DNA from: Alteromonas sp. KC3
Lineage (GTDB): Bacteria > Pseudomonadota > Gammaproteobacteria > Enterobacterales > Alteromonadaceae
Direction of reading: 5' to 3'
Length of the DNA stretch: 64,000 nt
NCBI RefSeq assembly: GCF_016756315.1
Contig: NZ_AP024235.1
Span: 4,464,001 to 4,528,000, forward strand
Each line of letters opens with the position of its first letter. Within the stretch, counting starts at the first letter, position 1. A model generated the notes under the pieces. That model was given only the letters and a program-made list of their open reading frames with translations, was not told the DNA's origin and made no database searches. The position numbers and the translations under genes were made by a program. Shown piece after piece: positions 7,632-56,971 of this stretch.

Positions 7632-7735
7632 GATCAAAGTTCCGTAAAGATTTTAAGATGATCATAGATAAGTAGCTTTTAAAAAGATAACCAAAGCATG
7701 GATCTAATATCGACTTTATCACCCAGAAATTAGCG

Positions 7736-8382: not shown

Positions 8383-8519
8383 ACTGTGATGATGGCGCAA
8401 TTATCAAACAGCGTACACTCTCATAGTAAATTTTCTGACAGCAGTGTATTAATTTTTTCTGGCGTTAAATCTAGTGTTCGAGTCTCAGTGCCGACTGCTA
8501 CAAATTAAGTCACCACCGC

Positions 8520-18421: not shown

Positions 18422-18920
18422 GGGGCGCCTCCTTTATCACACTTTGTTTTGCACGCTTTAAAATAACGCCCACATGATTTTTAGTTAAACCACAAACCTC
18501 GGCAATTTCATCGTAGCTCAACCCTTCAAGCGACAAGGTCAACACCTGCCGAGACTGCAAGGGCAGTGCTCGAACCGCAGTAAGTAACTGCTCTAGTGAT
18601 TGCTGCTGACTAGACACCACCTCTGGTGAGTGCTGTGCACTACAATAACCATCTGACCCCAGCTCATCGCTGTCGTAGTGGTGAGTATCTATACGTTTAA
18701 CTTGGCTTGCCACGTGAGTCACTGCGCGGTTATGGGCTATTTTGAGAATATAGGTTTTTACACTGCTATCACCATTGAAGCGCGCCAACCCCTGCCATAC
18801 TGCAATAGCAATTTCCTGTAATAACTCTTGTTGCATGGCGGGATTTGCCTCGTAACTGTTCGCTACCCTACTCAGCAATGCGCCATACTGTGAAAAAACC
18901 GCTTCGAAACCTTGCCCCAA
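18414..18920 (-). CDS. ECF-type RNA polymerase sigma factor
   Basis: A 168-residue sigma-70 family protein with region 2 (about 25-75: QELLQEIAIAVWQGLARF, then KTYILKIAHNRAVTH) and region 4 (about 110-160: LPLQSRQVLTLSLEGLSYDEIAEVCGL-type helix-turn-helix, then HVGVILKRA). The start is a TTG at 18920; an in-frame stop lies 21 bases upstream with AGGATAGGA between, so no ATG start is possible nearby. The linker is long and polar. It should direct polymerase to an unknown regulon, probably including its own operon with the membrane protein downstream. Confidence 0.9.
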   Translation of the reverse strand: MGQGFEAVFSQYGALLSRVANSYEANPAMQQELLQEIAIAVWQGLARFNGDSSVKTYILKIAHNRAVTHVASQVKRIDTHHYDSDELGSDGYCSAQHSPEVVSSQQQSLEQLLTAVRALPLQSRQVLTLSLEGLSYDEIAEVCGLTKNHVGVILKRAKQSVIKEAPHA

Positions 18921-19276
18921 TCTGGTGGATCCTATCCTTTATTTTTATTTGTTTTGCGCAGTGTAAAACTCAGAATTCATGAACCTAGTTTTAAGGCCAC
19001 ATTCAGCCTAATGTTCTTCATGGTATGTCGCATGCTTTTCAGCAAGCGTAATCTTCATCGCAGCGCTTCCCTTATTCTTAAGCCTTCTAAGAACGCGGTT
19101 ATTCTCTACAGTCAGCGTGTAGCGAATTTTATTACACACTTTTTTTTAAAATCGTTGTAATTTTTTTTAAATGGCGATGACTAGTGATAACGAAAGCGGT
19201 GCAACAGCCCCAAACTCTACGTTTAGGCGTTGCCAAAACACATAAAGACATAGTCAACACAACGAGGGAGAGCCTA
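18921..19276. other. Divergent intergenic region, sigma gene / PspB-like gene
   Basis: No coding region is convincing here. Two T tracts lie at about 19139-19150 and 19162-19170. The segment must hold promoters for both divergent genes, but I could not assign a -35/-10 pair with confidence. Confidence 0.4.
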
Positions 19277-19552
19277 ATGTCTACGTTAAGCCTTGTATTA
19301 TTACTAAGCGGTATCACATCTATTGCGCTCTTAGCGTGTTATCTTGATGCTAAATTTCAATGGCGGTTAAACGACTGGATGAATGGTCAGTGCAGCAATC
19401 CATTCATTGCAACCAACGCCTCGCAGCAAGCGCAGCGATTAAAAGAGAAAGACGCGCAAATTGAAAAGCTCATGGAGCGCATTGAAACGCTGGAAGCCAT
19501 CGTGACCGAACCTGCCTATGAGCTAAACAAGAAAATTAATGCGCTTAAATAG
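19277..19552 (+). CDS. PspB-like membrane coiled-coil protein
   Basis: A 91-residue protein starting at the ATG at 19277, with GAGGGAG 6 bases upstream; an ATG 93 bases earlier lacks such a site. One membrane segment (residues 3-22) is followed by a short basic linker and a C-terminal coiled coil (KEKDAQIEKLMERIETLEAI). This layout and the 'ERIETLE.I' pattern resemble phage shock protein B, which sits in the inner membrane and activates PspF-controlled stress genes. No pspA or pspC is adjacent, so it is an orphan; its neighbour is an ECF sigma factor, which may hint at an envelope-stress role. Confidence 0.65.
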   Translation: MSTLSLVLLLSGITSIALLACYLDAKFQWRLNDWMNGQCSNPFIATNASQQAQRLKEKDAQIEKLMERIETLEAIVTEPAYELNKKINALK

Positions 19553-19570
19553 TGATATTTTACACCGCGC

Positions 19571-20473
19571 CTAGTTTGGTATTGATGGGCGGCGCATAAA
19601 GCGTGGAATTTTCCCCATGGCTATCGCGTTGCCCATCAATACAATCACCACGCCAACCACAGATAGCATGGTCCACTGATACCCTTCAAAGAAGGTTGAT
19701 ATCAATAGCGCCACCATGGGATACACCAACACCACATAGGCCGCTTTATCAGCCCCCATTTGCTTGAGCAGTTTCATATACGCGCCGAACGCGAATACCG
19801 AACCAAACAGTGCCAGATAAACCAATGATAGATAAAAGCTTGTACTACTTGGAATAACTAACGTACCTGGCAGCAACAATGACGTAATAAAAAGCAATAT
19901 CATGGCGTAGGACATCGCATAAAAGTTCATCTGAATAACCGGTGTGCCGGCAGTAAGAATACGCTCGGAAATAACGTTTCCAATTGACGCACACAAGAAA
20001 CTTACAAAAGCGATGCCAAGACCCGTTGCAAGCGCGGCATCCATCGACACTTTTGAAAACTCGGGCACAAATAAACAAATGATGCCGCCAAGCCCGAACG
20101 TAGCCCCCACAACGACTTCTTTTCGAATAGGCTCTTTTAACCACCAGCGGCGTAACACCACGTTTATATAGATGATACACGAACTCATCAGTGCCAGTAG
20201 TGCGCTAATAATATGGGCTTGGGCAAGATACAGTAAGGTGTAATTAAGGCTATATAAGAATACGCCCACCGCGGCCATTTTAATGTGCACATGAACGGGA
20301 AGCGCCAACGGCAGACGCTTTATTAGGCAATACGCTCCTAAGCAGGCGGAAGCCAATAAGTAGCGAAGTGCAATCGCGAAGGTTTCAGAGGTATGCCCAA
20401 TTTGATAGGTTATCGCAATCCACGTAGAACCCCATATCAAGCAACACAACGAAAAAAGAGTAGCGTTATTCAT
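19571..20473 (-). CDS. DMT-superfamily EamA transporter
   Basis: A 300-residue protein with ten predicted membrane helices arranged as two EamA repeats (about 5-135 and 148-285). The first repeat starts with the typical CLIWGSTWIAI. Family members export amino acids, nucleobases or other metabolites across the inner membrane. It lies 18 bases downstream of the dehydrogenase gene and is probably the last gene of a three-gene operon with it and the thioesterase. Substrate unknown. Confidence 0.88.
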   Translation of the reverse strand: MNNATLFSLCCLIWGSTWIAITYQIGHTSETFAIALRYLLASACLGAYCLIKRLPLALPVHVHIKMAAVGVFLYSLNYTLLYLAQAHIISALLALMSSCIIYINVVLRRWWLKEPIRKEVVVGATFGLGGIICLFVPEFSKVSMDAALATGLGIAFVSFLCASIGNVISERILTAGTPVIQMNFYAMSYAMILLFITSLLLPGTLVIPSSTSFYLSLVYLALFGSVFAFGAYMKLLKQMGADKAAYVVLVYPMVALLISTFFEGYQWTMLSVVGVVIVLMGNAIAMGKIPRFMRRPSIPN

Positions 20474-38260: not shown

Positions 38261-38310
38261 GTTTTTAACGTCCAAATATTTTTGAATAATTTAGGCCAAA
38301 AATACAAAAA

Positions 38311-38356
38311 AGTGGTAGTGCGAGTGGTAGTTCGGTGGTGACCCGAGTGGTGACCC
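38311..38356 (+). repeat. Tandem arm-type repeats, left end of island
   Basis: Four units of 11-12 bases: AGTGGTAGTGCG, AGTGGTAGTTCG, GTGGTGACCCG, AGTGGTGACCC. They lie 55 bases before the integrase start and match the right-end copy at 51915-51944 (26 of 30 positions for the first 30 bases). Likely integrase arm-binding sites. Confidence 0.55.
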
Positions 38357-38410
38357 ACTAGCCGAGTCACCAATGTCGTCCAAATAACCCTATTATTTTG
38401 GAGGATATAA

Positions 38411-39606
38411 ATGTTAACCGAAGCGCAACTAAAATCTATCATTAAAGAGGCCGACCCAGTTCGGGGAATAGGAGATAAGGATGGCCTGTTTTTCTCATTG
38501 ACCAAATCGGGATATGCCAGTTTTAAATTCCGCTATCAGATAAATGGTCGGCGAGCCATTATCACCATCGGGCCATATCCTGCACTTTCTCTGAAAGAAG
38601 CTAGGCAGAAAGCAGTGGCTCTTCGCCACCAGCTAGCTAACAATATTGACCAGCTATGGAAAAGCGAAGAGCTGAACATCAAGCAAGACAGACTTTAGAT
38701 GCCGTATTTGAGCACTACTTTGAAACCATCATCGAGTCACGCTACTCACATGCTGAGCGTTTAAAGCGTCTTTATGAAATGAATCTAAAAAAGCCATTGG
38801 GCAAGCGAAGTATATCGGAGATAAATGGCTTGGAGATTTCGGATGTACTGCAGAAAATCAAAAAAGGCACACGAACAAAAGCACCGAGACCTTCGATAGC
38901 AAATAAATCGCTTTATTTACTGAAGGCGTAATTTAAACATGCTGTTAAGCTCGATTTAATTCGCCATAACCTAGCCCTATCCTTCACAGCTATGGATGCA
39001 GGCGGTGAAGAAAGGCCAAAAGATACCTATTTAAACGAAAAACAAATCAGACAGTTTTTCGACATAGCCGAAGCAGCAGGCACCGCCTTTAGTAGAGATA
39101 ACTACCTAGCAACCTGCTTGCTGTTTTGTACGGCAACTAGAAAGATGGAACTGTTAGGCGCTAAGTGGGAAGAATTCGACTTTGACGAGTTGTTGTGGAC
39201 AATTCCAGCGGAGCGCACAAAACCACGTCGAGAGTTCTTAGTTCCACTCTCACCACAAGTCATCGTTTGGCTTGATGAACTAAAAATAAGAGCCTGTGGC
39301 AGCGAGTACGTGTTTCCGGCAAGAAAGCAAAGTCGTATTCCTCATGTTTACCACGACACGTTAAACCACGCATTCAAGAATCTAAATCTACCGTTTGCAT
39401 TAGCACCACATGATATCCGCAGAACAACAGGAACATTGCTAGCAAAACTAGGCGTATCCGATCAGGTCGCTGAGATTTGCTTAAACCATAAACTACCAAA
39501 GATGCAGCACATCTATAACAAGTACTCTTTCTTGCCAGAAAAACGTGAGGCTCTTCTGATGCTATCTGAAACTTTTTGCAAATGCTTACCTAAAGAAGAG
39601 CAGTGA
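38411..39606 (+). pseudogene. P4-type tyrosine integrase, disrupted
   Basis: A GGAGG site precedes the ATG at 38411. The arm-binding N-terminal domain (DUF4102-like; GLFFSLTKSGYASFKFRY, then IGPYPALSLKEARQKA) runs to about 38665, where the frame shifts by one base near the sequence for NNIDQ/MEKRRAEHQ. In the second frame a TAA at 38929 interrupts LLKA/FKHAVKLDLI, after which the catalytic domain continues in the same frame: Arg in CTATRKMEL, HDIRR, NHKLP and Tyr in HIYNKYS. So there is one frameshift and one nonsense codon; the catalytic residues themselves are intact. The whole gene would code for about 395 residues, a normal length. Confidence 0.85.
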
Positions 39607-39943: not shown

Positions 39944-40978
39944 TTAGGCATTGAGGCGATTTAAGTGGGCTAAATATGCTAAAGGAAGAGCTGATGCTCT
40001 TTTACGCTCAGCTCTGATACTATTCAAAGCTTGGTAAGCTGTTGCTACAAAAGATAAGCCAGCGCCAGTATATGCAGCTTTGTTACCAGTGTCTGTTGCT
40101 ATCATTGCTAACCCTGACCCAAATAGTGGGGCTATTGAGCCAAAACTAATTTTCGACCATGAAGGCTTCATTGCATCAATTATTTGTTCTTTTTCATATT
40201 TGCAATCTTCAATAAAACCCGCAGTGGCTTCAATCCTATCGTTAGGATCATTTAATAAAGCTATTTGTGCTGATTCATTTTCTACTTTTCTACGTAGGGT
40301 TGGTAACAAATGACCATGATCAGTTTTAAATTGTGCTAATTTATCTAAATCGATAGGTTCATTTGGAATTGGCAATAGCCCATTAATGATTACATCATTA
40401 GCTTTTCTTTGATGATTAAACCTTGGATTCTCTCGTCTGAAATGGCCAAGAAAATTAGAGTATTTAAATTCACTTGTGATTGGTGCTGCGTTGACATCTT
40501 TAACACCACCTAAGCAAATAGCTAAATATGCCATGAACATGTTTGCGACTCGAGTATCCATTTCGAACCAAGCCCCATCTATCCTTCTAGCTAAACCTTC
40601 TTGTATAAGGAAATCTGGCAAGTGCCCAAGTTTTTCCACATGTAAATTTGCTCTAGGAACTAACTTTTCTTGGTGAACTCTGCCGCTGAGTGAAAAAGTT
40701 CTAATCGGATTTTCGCGATATCTCCTTACCTTTGGCTGTAAATATCTTATGAAACTACTTTCGAATTCAGGAATCTCATACAAGTAGTTAGATGGAAAGA
40801 CTTGCTCTACGAGATCTCTTTCTAATAGAGCTCTCATAAAGCCACTGAGTTGCTCTGGGCGGTCGATATGATCCATTGGAACAATAGAGCTCAGTTTGTC
40901 CCAATATAGAAGACTTTTAATAGTCCAGCTATTTTCTGGGATCGAAATATATGGAAAATATAACGCGTTATTTCGCAT
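39944..40978 (-). CDS. DUF6236-like protein
   Basis: A 344-residue protein from the ATG at 40978; a start 75 bases upstream is possible but its extra residues look unlike the family. The N-terminus NALYFPYISIPENSW, then SLLYWDKLSSIVP, matches the DUF6236 family (from memory), which is common in genomic islands. There is a weakly hydrophobic stretch about 90 residues from the end (SIAPLFGSGLAMIATDTG) followed by a basic tail. Function unknown; possibly linked to defence by location only. Confidence 0.7.
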   Translation of the reverse strand: MRNNALYFPYISIPENSWTIKSLLYWDKLSSIVPMDHIDRPEQLSGFMRALLERDLVEQVFPSNYLYEIPEFESSFIRYLQPKVRRYRENPIRTFSLSGRVHQEKLVPRANLHVEKLGHLPDFLIQEGLARRIDGAWFEMDTRVANMFMAYLAICLGGVKDVNAAPITSEFKYSNFLGHFRRENPRFNHQRKANDVIINGLLPIPNEPIDLDKLAQFKTDHGHLLPTLRRKVENESAQIALLNDPNDRIEATAGFIEDCKYEKEQIIDAMKPSWSKISFGSIAPLFGSGLAMIATDTGNKAAYTGAGLSFVATAYQALNSIRAERKRASALPLAYLAHLNRLNA

Positions 40979-41876
40979 AATGAACAAAACTCCATTTCTG
41001 TTTAACATGTTAACAATGAACAGACAATTCTTTTGAATCAGTAACTTGCTCACTTTTCTGAGTATGCTATAGATACCAAACTTTATAATACCTAGCTACT
41101 AAATTGATTCATTTTCTTTCAACCTTATTGCTTTGAAACAATTTAGGATTAGCTTTTAAAAACTGGTACTTAACTAGGCTGTGTTCAAGTTAGTGTTAGT
41201 TATTCTTTCTAATTGAATCGACGGTAATTTCCAAAGCCACCAAACATAAGTTAAATAAATTCTCTCAATGCACTTCCAATATTTGTTCAACCCTTAATAT
41301 AAGTACAACCAATACTTTTTAATCGTTCTCCTTAGCTAGACCTCACCACACTTGGCCTACAAGAATTCAAGGCTTTTTTTAGAAAAGGAGAACGTCTTCT
41401 CTTTTAGCCTTGCAAATTACTTTTGAAATTCCCACCTTAACACTGGACAAAAAACAACCTTCAACTCTCTAGGCCTTATATATAAAAGGCTTCAAGCTTA
41501 ACGTGTCCATAATTGTGTCAAAAGCTATCCCGTTCCTAAAATATTCGCGAACAATCTAACCGGAGTGAATAAATGGTTTTACGTGAACGCGTCGAGCATG
41601 GCGAGCAAAAGCTCAATAAGCTGAAGCGAGAGTGTAAACCTCTCCTAAATTAGCTGACCACCATACTCAGTTATTTCAACAACTTGTCAAAAAACAAGTG
41701 TAATAGTTAGGAACTTAGCTTTTCAAAACAACCAACTGTCTTGTCACGACATAAAGAAACACAGATAAAGTAACAAAACCTATATATTTTTTGTTATATA
41801 AACTCTACTGTTTAGCTTTTTATAAATGTTTCGTCCTAGTATCATCACTTTCGGAATTTTAAAGTGGTAAATAAGA
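40979..41876. other. AT-rich gap with hairpins, no clear gene
   Basis: About 900 bases without a convincing gene. It contains a long imperfect hairpin at 41369-41411 (AAGGCT/AGCCTT ends, AAAAGGAGA/TCTTCTCTTTT inside), a second AAGGC/GCCTT-like repeat at about 41470-41495, and a short open frame at 41573-41653. The stretch from 41730 to 41876 is very AT-rich, with TATATAAAC-like boxes, and probably holds the methyltransferase promoter. An inverted TGTC..GACA motif at about 41733-41750 could be an operator. Confidence 0.4.
41573..41653 (+). other. 26-codon open frame, possible gene remnant
   Basis: ATG preceded by CCGGAGTGA, reading VLRERVEHGEQKLNKLKREC and ending after 26 codons. The good ribosome site and charged helical sequence suggest the 5' end of a lost gene rather than chance, but no family can be named. 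Confidence 0.3.
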
Positions 41877-43412
41877 TTGAATAAGAAAGATAAAGTTCTG
41901 GTAATAGACCTATTTGCAGGCCCAGGCGGCTTGGGTGAAGGTATTTCTGCTACGACAGATAAAAATGGTAAAAAACCTTTCGATATTCGTATATCTGTAG
42001 AAAAGGAACCTTCGGCTCATAAAACTTTAACAACCAGATCATTCTTTCGAAAAATCAGAACGATGCCAAAGGGCATGGAAAACTATAATCTATATTTACA
42101 AGGAAAATTATCCCGCGAAGAGCTATTTGCAAAATTTCCGGAGCAATCTGAACTTGCTCTAAATGAGACATTAGAAGGCCCTAAAGCTCTTGGTGAAGAT
42201 AATAAACTAATTCATAGCCGTATCGAAAAGCTGATTAGTGACCATAATGGACCTAAGGTAGTCATTGGTGGGCCACCATGCCAAGCTTACTCACTTGCAG
42301 GAAGATCTCGCAACGCAGGAATAGAAGATTATAAAGCTGAAAAAGACCATCGTAATTTCTTATATTTAGAATATTTAAAAGTACTATCAATTGCTCAACC
42401 AGATGTTTTCGTGATGGAAAATGTTAGGGGCATCCTTTCCGCAAAGATTAATGGTAAAGTAATGTTTCCTCAAATACTCAAGGACTTGAGAAAACCTGGG
42501 AGAGTTACCAAGATTAAAGGTGTACCAGGATATAAAATCTATTCGTTGGTTGCTCCAGCAGAAAATCCTAATAATCCTCAATATAAAAACTCTTCTGACT
42601 TTTTGATCAGAGCCGAAAATTATGGCATCCCCCAAGCTAGACATCGGGTAATTTTATTAGGGGTTAGAGAAGACTTAAATTGTATCCCAAAAACAATTAG
42701 TGAAATAAAAAGACAAGTAACCGTTGAGGAGGCAATAGCAGATCTTCCAGCTCTTAGGAGCGGCTTTTCCAAGCAAAAAGATATTCAATCTGATTGGGAA
42801 AAACAAATTAAGAATAACTCTAAGACACTTATAAAGTTATTACGAGAAAAGTTTGGGGAAGAGGCTGCATCAAACCTAAAACTTCCCCCAATAAAAGGAC
42901 TCCCTCGTTCATGTTCTGAAAAAGCGGTAACTAAACCTAAAATGCCAAACGATATCAAAGAATGGTACTTAACGGACTCACCTAAAACCGTTCTTAATCA
43001 TGAAACCAGAGGCCATATGACATCTGATTTACTGCGTTATGGGTATAGTGCTGCATTCACTAAACTGAACAATGGCGTATCACCTAAGTCTAGGGACTTT
43101 CCTGCTGAGCTTGCACCAGAACACGAAAATTGGAGCTCTGGCTCACATGCTGACAGATTTAGAACACAGGCTGCAAATAAACCTGCAACCACCGTTACGA
43201 GCCATATCTCGAAAGATGGTCACTACTTCATACATTATGACCCTCAGCAATGCCGCAGTCTTACAGTACGAGAAGCAGCCCGTCTTCAAACCTTCCCTGA
43301 CAATTACTTATTTGAAGGAAATAGGACACAACAATATGTTCAAGTTGGTAATGCAGTTCCTCCTTTTTTAGCCTTGCAGATTGGAAAAGTCATATTGGAA
43401 CTTTTGACCTGA
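41877..43412 (+). CDS. C5-cytosine DNA methyltransferase
   Basis: A 511-residue m5C methyltransferase. The start is TTG at 41877, because an in-frame stop lies 9 bases upstream and no ATG is available before motif I. Motifs in order: I (VIDLFAGPGGLGEG, 9-22), IV (GGPPCQAYS, catalytic C135), VI (MENVRG, E181), VIII (QARHR, 253-257) and X (QVGNAVPPF, 489-497). The target-recognition region (about 260-480) is long and Lys-rich. The family transfers a methyl group from SAM to cytosine C5 in a specific DNA sequence. It converges on the ATPase/FtsK operon with 51 bases between, suggesting a modification partner for it. Confidence 0.95.
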   Translation: MNKKDKVLVIDLFAGPGGLGEGISATTDKNGKKPFDIRISVEKEPSAHKTLTTRSFFRKIRTMPKGMENYNLYLQGKLSREELFAKFPEQSELALNETLEGPKALGEDNKLIHSRIEKLISDHNGPKVVIGGPPCQAYSLAGRSRNAGIEDYKAEKDHRNFLYLEYLKVLSIAQPDVFVMENVRGILSAKINGKVMFPQILKDLRKPGRVTKIKGVPGYKIYSLVAPAENPNNPQYKNSSDFLIRAENYGIPQARHRVILLGVREDLNCIPKTISEIKRQVTVEEAIADLPALRSGFSKQKDIQSDWEKQIKNNSKTLIKLLREKFGEEAASNLKLPPIKGLPRSCSEKAVTKPKMPNDIKEWYLTDSPKTVLNHETRGHMTSDLLRYGYSAAFTKLNNGVSPKSRDFPAELAPEHENWSSGSHADRFRTQAANKPATTVTSHISKDGHYFIHYDPQQCRSLTVREAARLQTFPDNYLFEGNRTQQYVQVGNAVPPFLALQIGKVILELLT

Positions 43413-43463
43413 CCATTTTTTCGAAAAAACTTATGGAATCATATACATTATCTAATAATGCCT

Positions 43464-46400
43464 TCATGTTTTGGCACATTGAATACGAGTTAGTTTCCCT
43501 TCCATTTTAATCAGTGCATCCCCTTTGCCATTGAGAGTTTCTGCACCGGCTTCATCAATTATTACTCTGCTTTCTGTTGCACTCTTCACTCTTAAAGCTA
43601 ATTGTGCCGGTAAGTTTGATCTTAAATTGGTGCTAATAACCTCTGCACTAGGTTTTTGTGTAGCTATTATTACGTGAATACCTGCCGCCCTTGCTTTTTG
43701 AGCTAGCCTTTTTAAATACCCTTCAATAGTTTTTTTACTTTCCTTCTCCGAAGTTAAATCTGCATATTCATCAAGCACAACCACCCACCAAGGAATCTTA
43801 CTTTCTTCATCCACAATTGCGTTATATTCGGGTAATGATCTTGTTTTTAAGGATTTCAACTTGATGTATCTACTTTGCATTTCTGCAACGGCCATTTCAA
43901 GTAGTGCTATTGCATCTGTATCATCCCACCCTATAGAGCCTTCTAAATGAGGATCATCTTCATATTGCTGCAATTCTGTCCCTTTAGGATCAACGAGCAT
44001 GATTCTTAACTCTTGTTCAGAGTAGTATTCAATTAAACCATCTAGAATCGTATTTAATGCTTCGGACTTCCCGCTTCCAGTTGTGCCTCCAATTAAGAGA
44101 TGCGGACAATTAGAAGATGAAAAGTTTATATCTACGATTTTACCGTAAGTGTCTTCGCCAATAGGTGCAGCTAATTGATCTGTAGGCCGCCTCCATTCCT
44201 TCCAAATATCTTTTGCACTAACAAAATATCTATCTTCTTGCTTCTTAGGGACATCAATTGTTACAAAACCTTGATGATTGCCAAACCTAATATTTTGATC
44301 TTGTTCAAGTGCAAGAGCTAACTTTAATACATCAGCTTTTTCATATAATTTCTTCGGAGCAACTGCATTACCTGGTTTGAGTCGATATAAAATTGAGGCA
44401 GGCCCTTCAACAAACCTCATGCTTTTATCTTCAGGTTGCTGAACCGAAACACCAAATTCACCAAATTTATCAAGAACTACCTGATATCTATTGATCAGTT
44501 CATCTTCGGATAATGACTTTTTAATGAATGAATCTTTTGGCTGAGATTCTTTATTGATGAGCTTTTCACTTAAGTTAGATTCAATTGAAGCTTCTTTTTC
44601 TGAGTGTTTTGTTTCGTCGGGAAGCACTAAACTATTACCCAAATTTGCATTATCTTTATTATCTATTTTTAAGCTTTTAGCATGACCTGAAATTAAGTCT
44701 AGAATCTGTTCTTGGTAAGATTTGACAACAAAAATATCTCCCTCTTTAAATGGAGATATTAATTGTCCCTGTTCTAAATAACAGCAAATTGAAAACAGCC
44801 CTTTCACATTTCTGAGTTGATAATTACCGTTTCTAAAGTCTTGGCGTGTTTTTTCTGGTAACTTACGTTTTTTGTCATCAACTTCAGCTTGAGATAGACC
44901 AAATATCATTCTCGCTTCAGGGTTCACACTTTCCATTGCTGTTAAAAGGTGCTCTCTCCATAGTCGAGCATCTATTGCTTCTGTTTCAGTTTCAATTATA
45001 GTCTCAATCAACTCTAAAGAGGCTTTAACTTGCTCAACCCCATGTGAATCGAAGCTCTGCCTAAACTTGCCTTCTACAATTAAAGCATCTACATACAATT
45101 CTTCTTCTTTAACTTCTAAAGTCAATCTGCATAGATCTGCTCTTGTTGTATTTCGGCCAGGAAACCACTCAGGGTGCTCGTCTAGAGAAATCCAAATTAC
45201 AGCGCCATCCGAAATTTGAGAGGGGAAATAGAGATCAGATAAATGAGTGGCAATCATTAACCCTAAGATTTCTTCTGTTACTCTCGAGATTCCCATGGCT
45301 TTAAGTACCAATTGGGGTGATACCTTTCGAGTATTTTCATATACTCTGCTGGCCAAAACACTGAGTTCTTGGTCAGTAGGAAGATGTTCCGTTTTTTGAA
45401 GTATATTCCGGAGCTTTCTTTCTAGACGGTTGATTATAAATTTTTTACCAGAATTTGATGAAACTATTAGTGTGTATAAGCTGTTTGTACCTACTTTATT
45501 TCTTACAGTTAAAATATCAGGCTTTGGTTCTAAGTTTTCCACTTGAGACCTACTCAAATACCTTTCTAAAATAACTACCCAATGCGCCAATTCATGAAGC
45601 TGCTCATAAAGCTTTGCTGTTTCCTGAAAACTTATCTTTAACTCTACATAGTCTGTATTTTCAGGTTGTTGCTTTGAAACTGCACCAGATCGTACTTCTC
45701 TAACCACCATGGTAGACCAGTTCTTCAAAAGAACATCGGAATCCCTAGGTAACATTGATACAGAAATTTCTCCACCGTCTTGTCCTCCATATAAACAATT
45801 TGGACTATCAAGTAGCGTATCAAATCTCCCTTCTCGATCTTCTGGTGGTTCTGTATTGTGCTGCACATTAAGTTGATCTTTGAGCAAACCAGGTACCAAA
45901 GCTACGTCAAAACTTTGTTCTCTTAAAGAGCTTGGAATAACATTAGGGCCTTCTAAGTCGTAGAGCCTTAATTGTAATGGTGGGAAAAGCTCGTTCCCTT
46001 CACTGATTCTATTTTCCGTTGGTAAATCTTCAAAATTTAAAATTACTTCTTCCCAGAGTCTCTTAGGAGATAAAACATGCAAATTAATTTTCGTAGACTT
46101 AAATTCACCTTTTCGAATTTCTTTTATTAACTCAGAAGCAAATCTTCCACTTTGCTGAAGTATCAATAAAAGCTGCAAACCATCCTGCTTGTATGGATGC
46201 GCTTCTAAATATGTTTTGACTTGTTTAGCTAATTCAATTATCGAAGGGTAGTCTAAAACCCCACCTTTACTAAATCTGTGCTTTGTGCCTAAAGGAGCAA
46301 ATTCTTCACACCAACCTTGCTCACCAGTAGCAAATAGTAAATTCCGTTCCTTAGTCGCTAAAATTGGCGGTTGCTGATGTGGTGATAAATCCGAAAGCCA

Positions 46401-48485
46401 GTTAATGTACAAACTATCGTTAAGTGGATTTAATTTTAAATTTCCAGAAAGAGCTAGATTGGCATTTTGTTCGGACTCTTCAAAATATTTTGAAATCCAA
46501 CGCAGTCGCAGAGGGTGATTAGGTAACATGAGTCTTTTCTCATTACCTATATCTATAACATCTCTAGATAATAAAAATGATAGCTCTTCATGAGTTTTAC
46601 CAAACGGAACATAAGTATGTTTGGCTTCATCCACTAAAACTTCCCATTTATCGATCAGTTCATTTATAAATTCTCTATTTAAGCCGTATTTCTTTGATGA
46701 TTCACAAAAATTTAAATTATCTTCAGCTAAAGTAGACAAGATGTGCTCATTTTCCTGCAACTCTGTTGACACATCCACTAGACAATCTTCGATAGTCAAT
46801 GTTCGATTGCAAATATTAAGTAGCCAGTCATCTATGCCAATATCCTGAGGTAACTTAATCGTTTTGAAATAACTCAAGTTGGGCTGTTCAAAACACCAAA
46901 TCCAACTCAATGCTAAATAAGGGTAATAACTAGGTAACCATTCATAATTACTAGAAATATCAAGTTCTGTTCCATCAGATAAATCCCTAACCACGAACTC
47001 TAAAGGTATTGCTTTCCAATCAACAGATACTTCCTCTTCATAAACATCACTATTTTGAGAAAGACGAGGCGGTTGCTTAGGCTGGACTAAACATTCTTCA
47101 ATTGAAAACTCGAACCCTTCTGTATTTATCCTAGAAGCTTCAGCAACAGACTTTAGAGTTGAACCATAAATAAAAGCAAATAATCCAATTGAAGGATTTG
47201 TTACATCTCCAGCTTTACCAAGCCTGAGTTCAATTTCACATTGCGAGTTACCGTAGTTTGGGTAAAAGTCTCTAGCGATTTCAGTTAACTTTATTAAAGG
47301 ATTAATAAAGTTCTCAGGAGTTGGGAAAGCTACCTTATCCACCATTCTTTTTGTCTGCTTAGATAAAAAGTCTGCTAATGGGATACCACTTTCTATTGAA
47401 TCTGCTTTTAACAATTCTAATGCAGAGTCTTGGATTCGTTCATTCAACCCACTCTTAATGTTTAAGCTTAAGAACTGCTCCAATTCTTTAGGTGTGTTAG
47501 TAGATAACTCTTGTTCGACCCTATCACCCAACTGCAATCCTTTTACATCCTTTGCAAACAACTGTTCAAAAATTCTAAAGGGAATTTCCTTCCTTATATC
47601 CAATCTTCTTGTTTTACTATATTCAAGACAAAGTTCCTTCCAAACTTGCTGTCTCTCTAGAGGGTATTCATTACCTTGGATATCTTTAAAAGACAAAGAT
47701 GAACAAATCTTATAAACGTCTTCCGGCTCTATGTCTGTATTATTCGACGTTGCTAATTCAGCATATGAAAGATTCAGCTCTAACCTACGAGCTATACTCG
47801 AGTCTGACTTTCCCTCACTCCAAAATTCATCGGGAAACAAACCTAGATAAACTAAATTCCTGCCAATTAATTCAACCTGTTTTTCAAGTGTGTGATTAGA
47901 GCCTTCTAATTTAAAAGATTCACAACACCCCAATACGAAATTGACAAATCTTCTCACTGGAACTTGAGTTTTATGAGGATGCAATAAGTTCAAAACATCT
48001 AAAAGCTTTTGAGTAAACAAGTCTGGAGCTGCTGAACCATTTTCTAATGTTAACTCCCAACATTTCGCAATAATTACTTTTGGAATATCAATTTCATCTT
48101 TGAAAAAATTATCAAGAAAATTTCTATCTTGAAAAGTAAAAATATTTTTTAACCCTTGCTCATCGCTTTCTGTTTTTGTTTCTAAATAAACTAAACCGCT
48201 ATCATTATTATTTCTATACCAAGTAATGGAACGTCCACTATCTGCTCTATATTCGTCGGGGTAATCTTTATCAGCATCGCCCGCAATAAGAACTTTTACT
48301 TTTTGCTCCCCTTGAGAGTGAGACACTTTGTTCCATACATTAATAAATTCTATAATTTCATTTTTGAGAAGGTTTTTAATCCTAAAACACTTGTGCGATA
48401 CGTCTTTTTGTGACGCAAATATTTTCAAAACAATTTCAACTACTGTCTCAGATATAACTGTTTCAGCTTTACTTATGACTGTCAT
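43464..48485 (-). CDS. Giant FtsK-type motor with nuclease-like motif (DptH-like)
   Basis: A 1673-residue protein. The C-terminal 250 residues are an FtsK/HerA-type ATPase: Walker A GGTTGSGKS (K1473), VDPKGTEL (D1499), Walker B VVVLDEY (D1572, E1573), then IIATQKPS and LPAQLALRV. In the middle, D1117 in TRADLCRL followed by E1138-G-K1140 gives a D-x20-ExK arrangement typical of PD-(D/E)XK nucleases; this is my reading, not proven. The N-terminal 1000 residues have no recognised motif. Length and C-terminal motor recall DptH of the DNA-phosphorothioate restriction system. It starts 4 bases inside the upstream gene, so is translationally coupled. Last gene of its operon. Confidence 0.8.
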   Translation of the reverse strand: MTVISKAETVISETVVEIVLKIFASQKDVSHKCFRIKNLLKNEIIEFINVWNKVSHSQGEQKVKVLIAGDADKDYPDEYRADSGRSITWYRNNNDSGLVYLETKTESDEQGLKNIFTFQDRNFLDNFFKDEIDIPKVIIAKCWELTLENGSAAPDLFTQKLLDVLNLLHPHKTQVPVRRFVNFVLGCCESFKLEGSNHTLEKQVELIGRNLVYLGLFPDEFWSEGKSDSSIARRLELNLSYAELATSNNTDIEPEDVYKICSSLSFKDIQGNEYPLERQQVWKELCLEYSKTRRLDIRKEIPFRIFEQLFAKDVKGLQLGDRVEQELSTNTPKELEQFLSLNIKSGLNERIQDSALELLKADSIESGIPLADFLSKQTKRMVDKVAFPTPENFINPLIKLTEIARDFYPNYGNSQCEIELRLGKAGDVTNPSIGLFAFIYGSTLKSVAEASRINTEGFEFSIEECLVQPKQPPRLSQNSDVYEEEVSVDWKAIPLEFVVRDLSDGTELDISSNYEWLPSYYPYLALSWIWCFEQPNLSYFKTIKLPQDIGIDDWLLNICNRTLTIEDCLVDVSTELQENEHILSTLAEDNLNFCESSKKYGLNREFINELIDKWEVLVDEAKHTYVPFGKTHEELSFLLSRDVIDIGNEKRLMLPNHPLRLRWISKYFEESEQNANLALSGNLKLNPLNDSLYINWLSDLSPHQQPPILATKERNLLFATGEQGWCEEFAPLGTKHRFSKGGVLDYPSIIELAKQVKTYLEAHPYKQDGLQLLLILQQSGRFASELIKEIRKGEFKSTKINLHVLSPKRLWEEVILNFEDLPTENRISEGNELFPPLQLRLYDLEGPNVIPSSLREQSFDVALVPGLLKDQLNVQHNTEPPEDREGRFDTLLDSPNCLYGGQDGGEISVSMLPRDSDVLLKNWSTMVVREVRSGAVSKQQPENTDYVELKISFQETAKLYEQLHELAHWVVILERYLSRSQVENLEPKPDILTVRNKVGTNSLYTLIVSSNSGKKFIINRLERKLRNILQKTEHLPTDQELSVLASRVYENTRKVSPQLVLKAMGISRVTEEILGLMIATHLSDLYFPSQISDGAVIWISLDEHPEWFPGRNTTRADLCRLTLEVKEEELYVDALIVEGKFRQSFDSHGVEQVKASLELIETIIETETEAIDARLWREHLLTAMESVNPEARMIFGLSQAEVDDKKRKLPEKTRQDFRNGNYQLRNVKGLFSICCYLEQGQLISPFKEGDIFVVKSYQEQILDLISGHAKSLKIDNKDNANLGNSLVLPDETKHSEKEASIESNLSEKLINKESQPKDSFIKKSLSEDELINRYQVVLDKFGEFGVSVQQPEDKSMRFVEGPASILYRLKPGNAVAPKKLYEKADVLKLALALEQDQNIRFGNHQGFVTIDVPKKQEDRYFVSAKDIWKEWRRPTDQLAAPIGEDTYGKIVDINFSSSNCPHLLIGGTTGSGKSEALNTILDGLIEYYSEQELRIMLVDPKGTELQQYEDDPHLEGSIGWDDTDAIALLEMAVAEMQSRYIKLKSLKTRSLPEYNAIVDEESKIPWWVVVLDEYADLTSEKESKKTIEGYLKRLAQKARAAGIHVIIATQKPSAEVISTNLRSNLPAQLALRVKSATESRVIIDEAGAETLNGKGDALIKMEGKLTRIQCAKT

Positions 48486-49777
48486 TTCAGGCCTCCAGTT
48501 CCTACCATTCGAGTTGCATCAGAGTACTCTGTAAGCAAGCCTGCAGCTTGCATCTGAATTGCAAAATGATTTTCGTTATCCTCAAAAACACTAGAATCGA
48601 ATGACTCTAAAAGACCACTTTTTTCAGCAGCTTTCCTACCTATTACTAACTTACACTTCTCAAACAACCAGTCATCGACGAAAGCTTCATAAGGGATCTC
48701 CGATGATTTATTTACAGCAGCAAGTACTAATGTTTCAGTTAATTCCAGTCCAAGTGTAAAATGACGTCGTCCTCGCCAAGCATTCAGAAGTTTAATTGTT
48801 GCTGCAGAAGCCCAAAAGAAACTTCTCAACATATTCTTTTGTTTATCCTTTAGCTCTTTGCCTTCTGAGGCTTTACTCGACGCATTTAGAATATTATTTT
48901 CAATATCTTTAAAACATCTCTGTGAAGCTCTGCGGAGTTGAACGTGAGAAGAGCCACAATCGCAAATGATAAAAGAGTGTTCTTGTCCAAGAAATTTACT
49001 AGCTCTTCGGTGTTGTATTAATAACAACCAAAATGCAGTCCAACTGATTAATGCTTTAATTCTTGCAACCGCAGATAGTTCATGATGTTCCAATATATTA
49101 ACCACACCGTCTCTCAATAATTCCTCGTCCTCATCATTAAAAAGCACACTCTCAGCTTCGATAAGATCTTCATTGGAACTATCACTAACGTAACTTTGTT
49201 TCAGTAAAGTATTAGCTAACTTTTCTAACGCACTCTGCTCGCTTTCAGCATACAATGCTAAAAAACCAGCACGGCTTCGAGCTAGTCTTTCTGTATTATT
49301 GTCTTTCCTAAGGATATGGTATACAAGTGCTCCTCCGCCCCTAAGGTACTTCCTTTCCACTAGAATTTTTCCGCCGCGTTTACGAGCATCCCAGTGAATT
49401 AGAGATTGAGTAAATGGAAAAAAGTGAGCTCTATCCCAGCCTGGCTTTTTTGATGTACTAGGAATTGGCAATTGAAGACAATTTAAAAGCTGTCTGACAG
49501 CCTCTTCAGTTTCAGGATTAAATAAAACTTTTTGCTTTGTATCTAAATCTGAGAAAGATTCATCCCAAACTATCCGTCTTGCAAAGTCATGAGCTCTTTT
49601 TCTTACAGAAACCTTTTCTGTGCTTGGTAATAGATCTTCATTAACAACACCAAATACTAAATTTAATAATTCCAATCCTGGGTAATGTCCAGCACCGTCA
49701 TATACAAGAACCCCTCCAAAAATGCTTTTAGATATATCAGGCCCTGTTATTTGTGTTTCTTGCTCGAAGTTCGACAT
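48482..49777 (-). CDS. Middle protein of the operon (DptG-position), unknown family
   Basis: A 431-residue soluble protein with no motif I can name with certainty. The middle part has SFIICDCGSSHVQLRRASQRCF, with Cys in CDC and RCF, and the C-terminal part is helical. It begins at an ATG that overlaps the stop of the ATPase gene (TAATG) and ends 4 bases inside the FtsK gene. Position and length fit DptG of dptFGH operons, which is poorly characterised. Assignment by synteny only. Confidence 0.7.
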   Translation of the reverse strand: MSNFEQETQITGPDISKSIFGGVLVYDGAGHYPGLELLNLVFGVVNEDLLPSTEKVSVRKRAHDFARRIVWDESFSDLDTKQKVLFNPETEEAVRQLLNCLQLPIPSTSKKPGWDRAHFFPFTQSLIHWDARKRGGKILVERKYLRGGGALVYHILRKDNNTERLARSRAGFLALYAESEQSALEKLANTLLKQSYVSDSSNEDLIEAESVLFNDEDEELLRDGVVNILEHHELSAVARIKALISWTAFWLLLIQHRRASKFLGQEHSFIICDCGSSHVQLRRASQRCFKDIENNILNASSKASEGKELKDKQKNMLRSFFWASAATIKLLNAWRGRRHFTLGLELTETLVLAAVNKSSEIPYEAFVDDWLFEKCKLVIGRKAAEKSGLLESFDSSVFEDNENHFAIQMQAAGLLTEYSDATRMVGTGGLK

Positions 49778-51606
49778 TAGAGACTGCCTCCTATCTGAAT
49801 AACTCCTTCATCAATTGATATAGAGCGCATTTTCCCATTTATAAACAAGGGAATATTCCCTTCTTCAGATACATGTTGCTGAGTTATGCTACCTAAAAAG
49901 GTTTTAATACGCCTAAGGTCATGTGCATAGAACTCTTCAGCAACATACCCAGAACTAGCCCGTGCAATACAGTCAAATACCATTAGGTTGAGCGGAAAGT
50001 CGAAAGGTTTGAGGTTTCTATCTTCGATTCGAAATACAATATGCCTGTCTAACCAATCGACACTGGAGCTGATATCATATAGTCCATCACTTGTATTCCA
50101 TGCGTTATTCATGGAGAGAATCTTGATTAATGTCGTGGGAATTTTTTTAGCTATAATTGCAGTGTGGCCAACACTTGAAGTAAAGGATGGGTCTACTATA
50201 TGTAAAGTAGTTTCGTCGTCACCTATTTGTAACCCTTGAATAGTGTGGAGACCTGCAATAAGTTTATTCTTAACGGTTTTCATCTTGGTTGCAGTCATAT
50301 TCCCTGCTAATACCTCAATAAAGTCATTACCGTGTTCAAAACCCAATAGACCCATTTCCTGAACACCCTGATCTTCAAAATATAACTTCCTACGTATACT
50401 CTGAACTAGCTCTTGAATAAATATCGCTTCATTATTTTGTTCTCTTTTACTTCTTGGGTCACTTATAACTTCATCAATGCCATTTGATGCGTCTACATTT
50501 ATAACTTTACCTCTGGATCTATAAGTAAATTGTAAATCTATTGAATTTGGTTCAAATATTCCTTGTTCATTTATAAGCTTTTCATCAACCTCTCTTAGAG
50601 ACTTCTTACCAGGGTCTAATAAATTTATATTACTTAATACCGATATTTTTTTTAATTTATCAGAACTGATCTCAGGTGGTGTTTTAAAAAGTAAATTATA
50701 GTAAGCATAATTACTCTGCCATCCAGCTTTTTTCTTTCTAAGGTTTTGATGAACATCTAAACAACCTAAGCCACCCGTTAAAAAATATGCAATAGCCATC
50801 AATATCTCACGAATAGTGATAACTGCCCCCAACCTTTCAGCCGTTGCAAAAAGTAATTCTATTCGGTTTAATCTGATAGAGGCTTTTTTGGATTCTCTAT
50901 GTGAGAGTTGATTACGATTAAATAAGATAGGGCAATGCTCTTTACTGTCACAGCTCTGGCAGGTAGACCACCTTTTCCCGTCAACCCATGCTTTCATAGC
51001 CATTGAAACTAAACTTTGATCATTAGTAGAAGCTACAGATTGATAATTCAAATTAACAATATGAACCAAGCCACTATGGGAAGAGACACCATCTTTGAAA
51101 GAGTCTTTAAATTGTTTTAACAATTCTTGGCTGTTTGATAAATCTTTTCCATATTCTAGAATTGCTCTCAATCGTCCTTCGTTTGCACATACAATAGTTG
51201 TTCTGTCATCATTCAAAGCTTTTTCAATATGCTCGGAAGCAATATCTACTCCCATTTCAGAGAAATCTTTATATATTCTGAGTGGTTGTCCAGTATTGTT
51301 AATATCTATAAATTGCTTTCCATCACATTGTGTATTTATGATGTCACGCGCCTCTTTCTGACTACAAGAAAAATGATATTCTATTAAACGCCTGCAAAGG
51401 TGTGTTTTTCCATGCCCCGCATCTCCAGTCAGAATAATCAACCGAGCTTTATCTTTTACTGATTTTTTTAAATAAGCTAGTGCTTTAGTCTCTAAATTTA
51501 GTGAATCATCAGTTGTTTGATATTCTTCATATATTTGATCATGAGAAGGATTGAAGGGCAAATAGCGATGTAATCGTTCAACGTGGGCATTTACTTTGTT
51601 AACCAT
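49777..51606 (-). CDS. P-loop ATPase with Cys cluster (DptF-position)
   Basis: A 609-residue protein. The ATG at 51606 is preferred; a TTG at 51621 would lie on the GGAG ribosome site. Walker A is GDAGHGKTH (61-69, K67). TIVCANEGRLRAI (about 137-149) looks like a sensor/Walker B-adjacent segment. A C216-x2-C219-x5-C225 cluster (CQSCDSKEHC) could bind zinc. The remainder is helical. First gene of the operon; size and order resemble dptF, but the P-loop sequence differs from what I recall of DptF, so it may be a different AAA/STAND-like ATPase. Confidence 0.8.
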   Translation of the reverse strand: MVNKVNAHVERLHRYLPFNPSHDQIYEEYQTTDDSLNLETKALAYLKKSVKDKARLIILTGDAGHGKTHLCRRLIEYHFSCSQKEARDIINTQCDGKQFIDINNTGQPLRIYKDFSEMGVDIASEHIEKALNDDRTTIVCANEGRLRAILEYGKDLSNSQELLKQFKDSFKDGVSSHSGLVHIVNLNYQSVASTNDQSLVSMAMKAWVDGKRWSTCQSCDSKEHCPILFNRNQLSHRESKKASIRLNRIELLFATAERLGAVITIREILMAIAYFLTGGLGCLDVHQNLRKKKAGWQSNYAYYNLLFKTPPEISSDKLKKISVLSNINLLDPGKKSLREVDEKLINEQGIFEPNSIDLQFTYRSRGKVINVDASNGIDEVISDPRSKREQNNEAIFIQELVQSIRRKLYFEDQGVQEMGLLGFEHGNDFIEVLAGNMTATKMKTVKNKLIAGLHTIQGLQIGDDETTLHIVDPSFTSSVGHTAIIAKKIPTTLIKILSMNNAWNTSDGLYDISSSVDWLDRHIVFRIEDRNLKPFDFPLNLMVFDCIARASSGYVAEEFYAHDLRRIKTFLGSITQQHVSEEGNIPLFINGKMRSISIDEGVIQIGGSL

Positions 51607-52024
51607 CCTTGTAGACTCCAAAATTTGAGGTATTTGATATCAGTAAATATAGTTATACCTTATCATTTAAAAGAACTCTAAAAAATACACTAACCCATTA
51701 ATATCTAAATTAAATAATTCCTATTCTATAATTTTGAAAAATTTATTCTAACATCGAAAAGTGTGATTCAATTCAAAAAAAATCTGTTAGTTTAAACATC
51801 GTATGTAAAATCAACCGTAAGATATAGCTAATTAACCTAAACCATAATCAGTTCACAAAATATCTTATTTGATATGGGTAGATGTAAAACCATATCGCTT
51901 TGAACAAATTAAAAATGGTAGCGCGAGTGGTAGTTCAGTGTTGATCTTTCCGAGACGGCATTGCTGAAAGGCTTGATTTTATTGGGCTACAGAGGCACTC
52001 TGGATATTGTTCTTCGTTGAGATC
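51607..52024. other. Right end of island, non-coding
   Basis: No gene is visible. It holds the promoter region of the ATPase operon (very AT-rich up to about 51900), the right arm-type repeats (51915-51944) and about 80 bases of non-coding sequence before the attR core. Confidence 0.5.
51915..51944 (+). repeat. Arm-type repeat, right end of island
   Basis: ATGGTAGCGCG, AGTGGTAGTTC, AGTGTTGA; 26 of 30 positions match 38312-38341 in the same orientation, with a 14-base identical core GCGAGTGGTAGTTC. Confidence 0.55.
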
Positions 52025-53870: not shown

Positions 53871-55411
53871 TTATTTTAAATAGTGCTCAAGAAACCGCGC
53901 ATGGGAAGGTAAAGACGCTACCTGCTGCATGACCTGCTGCTTTAACCCTGTCATAAATTGTTTTAATGCCGCCTCACTCATTTCATCTGCAACACGATGA
54001 TATTGCTTGGGTAGCATGCCTTGCCCCATTAATACTTGAGTCCAAGAATCAACGCGGAATATGTCACCATCGTCAAGAAACACGCGGCCAGTTTGTTCAA
54101 ACAAACGTAATTTATGCGTAAGCGACAGGGGAATATCCATGCGCTGACATTGTTGCCAAAACGGACTATCGTGTCGGTTCGTTACCTTATAATGCATGAC
54201 GATAAAATCGAGGATGGCGTCCATCTCGCTGGTAAATTTAGCGTTGTACTCATCAATTGCACTTTGCGTAACACCGTCAAATGGGAATAACCGCATCAAT
54301 CTCACAAGCCCCGTCATAATTAGGTGAATACTTGTAGATTCTAACGGCTCGATAAAGCCACTTGCTAACCCCAAAGCCACACAGTTTTTATTCCAACCCT
54401 TGCGCCGCTTGCGGGGTAAAGCGAATAACACGAGGGCTGTTAATAGGGTCACCCGACACCTGCGCTTTTAGTGTTGCTATCGCTTTTTCATCACTCATAA
54501 AGCGACTGCAATACACAAGACCATTTCCCATTCTCTCTTGTAACGGTATCTGCCACTGCCAACCCGCTTCATGAGCGATGCTTTTGGTAAGGCAATGGGG
54601 GTTGGGTAAGCGTCGTTTGCATAGCTACTGCACTATCGCAGAGTAAGAAGTGACGCCAGTCGTCATAGCCTGTGTGCAAGGTTTCTTCGATAAGTAACCC
54701 CTTAAAGCCTGTACAATCAATAAAGAAGTCGCCTTTTATTTCACTATTGTCAGCAAGATTCAGTGACGTGATATTACCTGACGTTGGGCATTGCTGTACT
54801 CGATTGATATCACCTTCGATATGCGTCACGCCCGCATCAATGGCAAGTTGTTTCAAGAATCGTCCATAGGCCACCGCATCGAAGTGATAAGCAAAATTAA
54901 GCGGGACGGTATCGGAAGAAGCAAACTTGCCTTGTTTTGCTGCTAACAATTCAGGGCAATAGTCTCCGAACTCACCAGCAAAACCATAGTCTTTCGCCCG
55001 TAACCAAAATGATGAAATTCACCCGCCCAGCACTCTCTGCCGGTAATGCCGAATGAGTGAATATAGCTATGAGATTTTTCGCGCCAGTTTTGAAATTCAA
55101 TACCCAGTTTAAAGGTGGCTTGCGTCGCACGCATAAACGCCTTTTCATCAATACCGAGAAGCTTGTGAAAGGTGCGAATAGGGGGAATAGTTGCCTCTCC
55201 CACACCTACAATGCCAATATTTTGATTCAACCAATGTTACTGATATGGATTTCCCTAATAACCGCGACAGGGCAGTGGCCGCCATCCATCCCGCGGTGCC
55301 ACCACCTGCAATTACTACTTGTTTTACAGGTGACTGGATAGCTGAGGAGTCTGGCAAAGAATCAAAATGCGCTTGCCCTTGTGTGGTGCTCTCACTATCT
55401 AATGGCGGCAT
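53871..55411 (-). pseudogene. Tryptophan-halogenase-like flavoprotein (2), frameshifted
   Basis: About 513 codons, broken by four single-base frameshifts. Reading from the start at 55411: FAD motif [12 protein letters not shown], then near 55222 an extra A after LVES before [14 protein letters not shown]; near 55006 a missing T in FHHF/W; near 54600 an extra C before the GWQWQIPL halogenase motif (W-x-W-x-I-P); near 54415 an extra C before [22 protein letters not shown]. All lie in homopolymer runs. The family are FADH2-dependent halogenase-like proteins found with TonB receptors. The 5' end overlaps the previous gene by 17 bases. Confidence 0.85.
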
Positions 55412-56971
55412 GTGCGTGCTCCTCTGAATACTGCGCACTAAGCTGGGTTAGGAGCGCTCGGTTAGTGGGTAAACCTGCTAAGTAAGCCTGTTGAGTTTGC
55501 ACTAGCTTATTTCGTAATGCTTGTGCTTTACGTGCAGTTTCTGCTGTCATTGCAGTAGCCGGCATTGCCGTGTTAAATCCCATGCCATACAAAACATATT
55601 GATAGCTTGCAGAGGGGAAAATTTCTTCATTTTCAATTAAATCTAAGCGAGAAGGGCTTTGATAACGCCAAATCTCTAATAACTCTTCAAGCGAACCAGG
55701 GAATACTAGACGGCTCGCGCTGTGCCAACCAATAGGGCTCTGTGCGATCGCTAAGGACATAGTGCAGTTTTAAAAATCAATAACGCGCTGCCAGCGGTAC
55801 GTAAAACGCGAATTGTAACGCTTTGCGACAAGTTCCATATGTCTACGGTTTTGTGGAAACGCATCGCATAACATGCGCAAACCTAGCTCGACCATAGCGA
55901 TGGCAGATGCCTCAAGTGGCTCAACGAATCCGGACGACATGCCCAAACTTAAACAGTTTTTAACCCAAAATTGCTGTCGATATCCGGGTGAAAAACGCAG
56001 CGTTCTAACATCGTTTTTTTGAATATTCTCTGGGTAGCGCAGACTTACCTGATTGAGCAAGGTATCTATAGCAGCCTTTCGCTAGTTAGCGTATCCGCAT
56101 ACACCAGCCCTATGCCGCGCCTGTGCTGAAGGCCAATATCCCATGTCCACCCATTAGATTGCGCTGTTGCGATTGTGGTGCTGCTAATAGCGTTATCGTT
56201 TTCTGCATAAGGTACTTGTACTGCCACCGCTCTGTTGTTGATAAGCGTGTGCTCTACACTTTGCCACGGTACTTTGTAGTGCTTCTCAATAAGCACTCCT
56301 TGCTGGCCAGAACAGTCAATAAACAGATCGCCCTTAATGCTATTCCCATCACCTGTCGTAACAAATTGAATAAACCCATTATCGCAAGTATTTACCTGTG
56401 CGATATGCGCTTGCTGATAGTGCACATTCAGCTTTTCAATACAGTGCTTTTTAAGCAACAACGCCAATGCTGAAGCATCAAAATGATAGCCATAATTCAG
56501 CACATGGGCATATTCGGGGGTACTTAACTGCTTGGGCGCTCGTCCGGCGTGGCATAGCGCAGCTTGCAAAGAAAAAGCATCTTGATATTCATCATCTTTT
56601 GCAAAGGTTTGCCAGCACGCGTGAATATCAAGTTCATTGTAACCATTTGGAACGGTAAAAGGGTGGTAGTAAATATGCGGTTTGTCAGTAGCGTTTCGCC
56701 AGTTTACAAAGGACGAACCTTGTTTGAACGATGCAGAGCACGTCGTTAAAAAATCACTTTCGCTGATACCAATATCGATAAGGGTGTCTCGCAATGATGG
56801 CCATGAGCCTTCACCTACACCTATTGTTGGTATATTAGGTGATTCAATTAACGTTACGTTAATTGAAGAATGAAGCTTTGACGCTAAAACGCCTGCAGCT
56901 AACCATCCAGCCGTTCCACCACCAACGATGACGACGTTTTTCACCTCTTGGGTTACATCATCTTGCGCCAT
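55395..56971 (-). pseudogene. Tryptophan-halogenase-like flavoprotein (1), frameshifted
   Basis: About 525 codons. The FAD motif VVIVGGGTAGWLAAG opens the protein, followed by LIESPNIPTIGVGEGS, with the expected GWTWDIGL in place of the usual W-x-W-x-I-P, and later KNCLSLGMSSGFVEPLE. Two frameshifts: near 56078 (ADTLTSE then AAIDTLLNQVSLRY in the next frame) and near 55772, where a missing T in a T run turns VIDFLKLHY into a stop. The first gene of the minus-strand group downstream of the TonB receptor gene (112 bases). Probably part of the sugar or aromatic-compound utilisation locus. Confidence 0.85.

Follow-up and report, generated by a model that had tools for sequence, protein, structure and literature searches.

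A 64,000-nucleotide stretch of the genome of Alteromonas sp. KC3 (positions 4464001-4528000 of one 4.56-Mb contig; hereafter the window) carries an island of low guanine-plus-cytosine (GC) content, on which the gene for a C5-cytosine DNA methyltransferase (MTase) converges on an operon of three overlapping genes, here called F, G and H (609, 431 and 1673 residues), as the initial annotation had described. These genes and their principal domains are as follows, in coordinates of the window.

41877..43412, + strand: C5-cytosine DNA methyltransferase, the proposed self-marking enzyme (PF00145, E 5.1e-47)
43464..48485, - strand: H, proposed nuclease-translocase, 1673 residues, SspH-like, a remote DndH homologue
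43647..44201, - strand: FtsK/HerA motor domain of H (PF01580, E 2.6e-34)
45030..45272, - strand: PD-(D/E)xK-type residues of H (E1072, D1117, E1138-x-K1140, Q1152)
48482..49777, - strand: G, 431 residues, SspG-like with a DndG-like fold, proposed reader of DNA or its modification
49777..51606, - strand: F, P-loop ATPase (GDAGHGKT), SspF-like, 609 residues

The MTase (511 residues, TTG start) contains motifs I, IV (GPPCQ), VI (ENV), VIII (QARHR) and X (GNAV), its best PADLOC model is DrmMII (9e-97, first of the best 25 of 58 matches), and it is the one C5 MTase detected in the 4.56-Mb genome. Its gene ends 51 bases from the end of the H gene. Within the operon, H and G overlap by 4 bases and G and F by 1 base, an arrangement that fits translational coupling. 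F, in which a CxxC...C pattern is conserved, may start at the ATG at 51606 (609 residues) or at the TTG at 51621 (614 residues). The motor of H has a Walker A motif at about residues 1467-1474 and a Walker B DE at 1572-1573, and its nuclease-type residues are identical in 45 H proteins of the clade described below (window included), in 11 phosphorothioate (PT)-linked H proteins and in four MADS-like ones. A fold model of this nuclease region recovers nucleases among its top matches, with modest Z scores; the PD-(D/E)xK nucleases include HamA, PaqCI and McrC.

In PADLOC, F, G and H match SspF (1.8e-57), SspG (3.3e-18) and SspH (5.8e-87, a score that owes much to the motor), all in one operon, and PDLC02803 matches residues 950-1180 of H, outside the motor (6.6e-16). 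No DndF, DndG or DndH (Dpt) model of PADLOC or NCBIfam matches the window proteins, and these models match strongly the true DndFGH locus of a control genome of the same genus (locus L154 of G536; 530, 434 and 1712 residues). Plain membership of DptFGH was rejected, since no Dnd model matches and G and F gave no hhalign alignment to DptG and DptF, although a single sequence of each, as used here, is a weak template. In sequence searches of solved structures, G had no match, and neither F nor the H piece had a significant one. The likeness to dptF-dptG-dptH proposed initially nevertheless holds at a more remote level: the H profile aligns with DndH (E 1.7e-6), the model of G (predicted local distance difference test 93.2) has DndG as its best fold match, and the gene sizes and order match those of L154. 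The further suggestion of a separate, undescribed family is not supported. Because F, G and H fall near SspF, SspG and SspH (PMC8092258) by hidden Markov model comparison, the putative restriction half is, at the level of profiles, a diverged clade of the known SspFGH family.

The absence of dnd genes from the window was borne out, in that no Dnd or Ssp model of PADLOC was matched by the 30 ORFs searched out of 40 non-island open reading frames (ORFs) of at least 120 residues. DndC is lacking in the whole genome and was recovered in the control G536, in which a dndC gene lies near the DndFGH locus (L154, L157, L158); DndA, DndB, DndD and DndE were not sought genome-wide. Queries with SspC and SspD found nothing in the window genome, where they had no positive control.

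Relatives of the trio were gathered with an alignment built from F only, against a set in which each species has one genome; this gave 49 loci, and 48 after omission of one with an 80-residue match (L050). L040 was kept, with an H identical to that of L039 and the same strain name. The stretch taken at each locus extended up to 10 kb before F and usually about 3.5 kb after H; L068 holds no trio. A C5 MTase lies beside the F-seeded trio in 41 of the 48 loci (40/47 without L040; 37/48 if only recurrent MTase families are counted), and a tblastn match to SspA-D was found in none. The queries were SspA-D of one locus, and at least one Ssp gene was detected in all 12 PT-linked loci. By contrast, a C5 MTase accompanies 0/12 PT-linked trios and 0/4 MADS-like loci; since the PT-linked set is defined by its own Ssp genes, only the lack of a C5 MTase in those 12 constitutes a test. 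The genome survey for a conserved neighbourhood that had been called for thus finds the association, with the MTase in the place of the sulfur genes.

The flanking MTases, of which there are 44, lie close to the trio (42 within 2 kb, 35 within 1 kb) and in several arrangements (20 upstream divergent, 12 upstream on the same strand, 10 downstream convergent and two downstream on the same strand), and all nine that were tested match PF00145. Two of the C5 MTases (L016 and L021) are masked in the ORF maps by longer overlapping frames and were recovered by tblastn. At the density of the window genome (1 per 4.56 Mb), the chance of a C5 MTase in a 22-kb stretch is about 0.5%, and at that of the densest of six other genomes it is a few per cent. 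It is very improbable, given this proximity and the contrast with the PT-linked and MADS-like loci, that the MTase has come together with the trio in defence islands as a solitary methylase, or as an ordinary one of Type II, and that the trio stands alone, as DndFGH does in the description of it as standalone, with no inbuilt modification module, in the relevant passages of PMC10853773. Three equivocal loci (L002, L005 and L023) could be such cases, and the search for a partner nuclease gene beyond each MTase was not systematic. In L002, whose trio is the most similar to that of the window, an unusual C5 MTase (18220-20385; PEC in place of the PCQ found elsewhere) is separated by 3 bases from a restriction gene of AspBHI type, and the two are possibly a nested second restriction-modification pair. 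Two different C5 MTases surround one trio in the actinobacterial loci L026, L022 and L030.

The seven F-seeded loci that lack an MTase are of several kinds. The stretches of L009 and L019 start at most 528 bases before F, those of L045 and L046 stop within F or shortly beyond it, L048 is disrupted and retains only a fragment of an MTase, and L024 and L032 are complete trios without a C5 MTase. C5 MTases occur elsewhere in the genomes of L009, L019, L024 and L032, which is weak evidence, since such enzymes are common (10/14 control genomes). In L009, F starts 529 bases into its contig and an MTase of the window family, 56% identical to that of L014 in the same H subgroup, lies on another contig; the second MTase of L022 is the one nearest to the MTases found elsewhere in the genomes of L024 and L032.

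According to record titles, the hosts include Gamma-, Beta- and Alphaproteobacteria, Actinomycetes, and metagenome-assembled genomes of Desulfobacteraceae and Verrucomicrobiia, each with at least one positive locus. A scan of viral_contigs gave 82 pattern matches, none of them a relative, and phage records gave no match to G. Among plasmid records there were 14 remote matches, all of which covered less than 80% of F; the nine examined comprise six with Ssp genes and three that are MADS-like (H3, H5, H9, H12 and H13 are not among them). Of two further models, TIGR03236 matched nowhere and is uninformative, and PDLC02806 matched 375 of 398 genomes, mostly via the FtsK motor, its three full-length matches being PT-linked.

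In trees of H, F and G, obtained by quick searches with long-branch warnings, the F-seeded trios lie on one side of a branch with support of 100, 99 and 94, respectively, in the Shimodaira-Hasegawa-like approximate likelihood ratio test, and the PT-linked and MADS-like trios lie on other branches. The 5-methylcytosine (m5C) label in these trees denotes all F-seeded loci, including those without an MTase. Because the loci were gathered by likeness of F, their grouping is expected; their MTase content was unselected. PT_L066, which was included for H alone, has a very long branch and falls apart from the PT clade; L040 (also left out of the fold alignments) and seven further close Streptomyces rows were omitted for F and G, and a length filter removed 4/62 F and 1/60 G.

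The MTases beside these trios belong to three recurrent families and six singletons and range from 318 to 628 residues. Between L013 and L015, F, G and H are 89, 94 and 90% identical, whereas the recognition regions of the MTases are 31% identical and the MTase positions differ. In L041, a C5 MTase of cluster 2 (8095-9138) lies beside a short remnant (9439-9578) of cluster 0, the usual MTase of its relatives, and the FGH trio is intact, with G and H 90% identical to those of L026; this locus likely represents a replacement of the MTase partner. As judged from these comparisons, the putative mark-making enzyme is exchanged and the predicted restriction machine is kept. Among 14 pairs, no region of F, G or H was found to vary with the MTase type, and a linker near residues 1280-1320 of H is variable in every pair.

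Such exchange may mean that the trio reads m5C in a relaxed manner, that the MTase steers the trio, or that all these MTases have a core site in common. Steering would make the C5 MTase a specificity subunit, as in BREX or Type I systems, that guides both methylation and restriction, with the trio inert alone; a nearly constant trio beside an MTase with a variable recognition region, as in L013 and L015, is what such a subunit would produce. However, families so many and so different in size argue against a conserved docking surface, and 30 of the 44 MTase genes are transcribed divergently from the trio or convergently with it, so that we regard this explanation as unlikely. Since unrelated MTases have been exchanged beside near-identical trios, we favour a trio that responds to m5C, or to its density, with relaxed demand on the sequence, over one that reads a single hard-wired site.

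The locus is reasonably probable to be a mobile system of modification and restriction, with m5C in the part that PT plays in SspBCD-SspFGH, the MTase protecting the host and FGH attacking unmarked DNA. The computed support consists of the protein families, the conserved catalytic residues, the likeness of H to DndH, the fold match of G, the closeness of the C5 MTase, the failure to detect PT genes and the common group in the trees. The C5 MTase would methylate host DNA, and we infer that m5C so placed marks self DNA. F as a P-loop ATPase, G as a DNA-binding protein with a DndG-like fold, and H as a PD-(D/E)xK-type nuclease with an FtsK motor would assemble into a complex that translocates along DNA to scan it, probably via the FtsK motor, and cuts DNA without the m5C mark. 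The assignment of self mark and attack on unmarked DNA is made by analogy with SspFGH, as it is treated in parts of PMC8092258. In this view m5C would inhibit rather than activate the complex, and phage defence would be its function.

The sign of the effect might also be the reverse, with the trio an m5C-activated effector that the mark switches on against invaders. SspE, which is paired with the same SspABCD, requires PT for its action (PMC8092258, in the portion concerned with it), and the adjacency of an MTase would look alike under such activation. Nevertheless, activation is quite unlikely: SspFGH, which is the closest among the characterised relatives, and DndFGH as well attack DNA without the mark and are harmful to cells that lack it, as far as the same portion of PMC8092258 describes them, and the remnant and second MTase of L041, a single case, suggest replacement over simple loss, which fits protection better.

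The island that holds these genes has a GC content of 0.32-0.40 over 40001-52000, against mostly 0.42-0.48 elsewhere in the window, which has a second dip at 4001-8000. Its remaining features are the following.

38304..38347, no strand: left island-end repeat, attachment-site-like, an imperfect direct repeat with 51904-51954
38410..39606, + strand: broken tyrosine-recombinase (integrase) gene with an in-frame stop near 38699 (PF00589, E 1.2e-20)
39944..41053, - strand: ORF of 369 residues, an island passenger (weak DUF6236 match, below cut-off)
51904..51954, no strand: right island-end repeat, attachment-site-like, an imperfect direct repeat with 38304-38347

The repeats have a 14-base core (at 38320 and 51923, + strand) that occurs nowhere else on the + strand of the window, and their alignment scores 56, against 49 for the best of 200 shuffles in which one piece was shuffled. 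The first piece of the integrase gene begins at about 38410, and the ORF with the catalytic domain spans 38992-39606. The description of the four genes as alone on an island with a broken integrase is correct as to the integrase, interrupted by its in-frame stop, and has to be amended as to their being alone, as the 369-residue ORF is also on the island; this ORF had no relative among the first 49 fetched loci. The island seems to have arrived recently, because G is present in only one of 40 sampled genomes of the genus, that of the window, and because, in all 10 relatives fetched, the 20 kb adjoining the left-flank gene contained no match to island DNA. A broken integrase would also be expected if the island were dead and its cargo decayed or silent, but this is extremely improbable, as the four genes are intact open frames with their catalytic residues in place.

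Two other places in the window deserve mention. In the other low-GC stretch, two neighbouring ORFs (4329-7265, + strand) match PADLOC PDC-M68A (2.1e-12) and PDC-M68B (6.8e-88), the latter also matching LmuB weakly (2.6e-7), which makes this a second candidate defence locus. On the - strand at 53871-55760 there is a series of short in-line ORFs, which look like a tryptophan halogenase broken into pieces; several genomes of the genus contain similar DNA.

Among known systems, DISARM shares a DrmMII-type methylase with the window, and BREX/Pgl was also considered. Both were rejected, since neither a Drm model (DrmA, DrmB and DrmC included) nor PglZ, PglX or BrxC/PglY was matched by F, G, H, the 369-residue ORF, the integrase or the 30 other ORFs searched. 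Of MADS, reportedly described by Maestri et al. in 2024 as mad1-8, the PADLOC mad8 model matches H of the window (4.3e-26, in the motor region). In the MADS-like loci L102 and L105, an FGH-like trio lies beside a base methylase, as here, but the methylase is annotated as N-6, with an annotated specificity subunit, and a kinase is fused to F, whereas the window has a C5 MTase (PF00145) and a 609-residue F without a kinase match. Together with L106 (Rhizobium), L102 and L105, which are on plasmids of Piscinibacter and Bacteroides, have FGH-like trios beside annotated N-6 or other DNA methyltransferases, with the F-like ATPase in a protein annotated as a kinase or NERD. It is tempting to speculate, although we hold this to be doubtful, that FGH is one restriction chassis with an interchangeable self mark, namely phosphorothioate (Ssp, Dnd), an N-6-methylated base (MADS-like) or m5C, and that the trio of the m5C clade reads methylation with so little sequence demand that any of several unrelated C5 methylases serves. 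Such reading, if true, would be unlike classical restriction-modification, and the finding of exchanged methylases next to trios that are nearly identical challenges the rule of a single fixed site that restriction and modification must share.

SspFGH, described in 2021 by Wang et al. (PMC8092258), damages non-PT DNA and is toxic without the PT genes, according to the sections of that paper devoted to it. The window trio resembles it in the order and sizes of the three genes and the PADLOC matches, and the nuclease and motor residues are identical; however, the two form separate groups in all three trees, and SspFGH pairs with SspBCD phosphorothioation in place of a C5 MTase. The PT-linked trios of L070, L121, L122 and L123 have nearby a protein annotated as 'DNA phosphorothioation-associated putative methyltransferase', or one related to it, and no C5 MTase. 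In L104 (10070-12790), an IS5-family transposase gene splits the SspF of a PT-linked trio. The survey of SspFGH began from SspBCD, as far as it is set out in those sections (PMC8092258), so that an m5C-linked clade would escape notice.

The C5 MTase-FGH pairing is the part of this system for which no published description was found among the matches listed in a search of open-licence PMC full text (subscription journals, preprints and supplements lay outside its scope); the supplementary neighbourhood tables of PMC10853773 may list such loci. If the pairing is real, there is a widespread clade of FGH trios with a simple, clonable partner mark, and self/non-self discrimination by FGH can be probed with ordinary methylases in m5C-free laboratory strains, in place of phosphorothioation, which is partial and heterogeneous. 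The published views, in the parts of the two papers that bear on this point, are that DndFGH is standalone and decoupled from PT modification (PMC10853773) and that SspFGH is sulfur-dependent (PMC8092258). The cytosine methylases reported in the passages of the former paper that concern them belong to CxC-ABC ATPase/DndE systems and not to FGH trios. These are Dnd-type systems with a cytosine methylase in place of the PT genes, but there the substitution is at the DndD/E modification core and is accompanied by an HKD-helicase nuclease, whereas in the clade of the window the C5 MTase stands beside the FGH trio.

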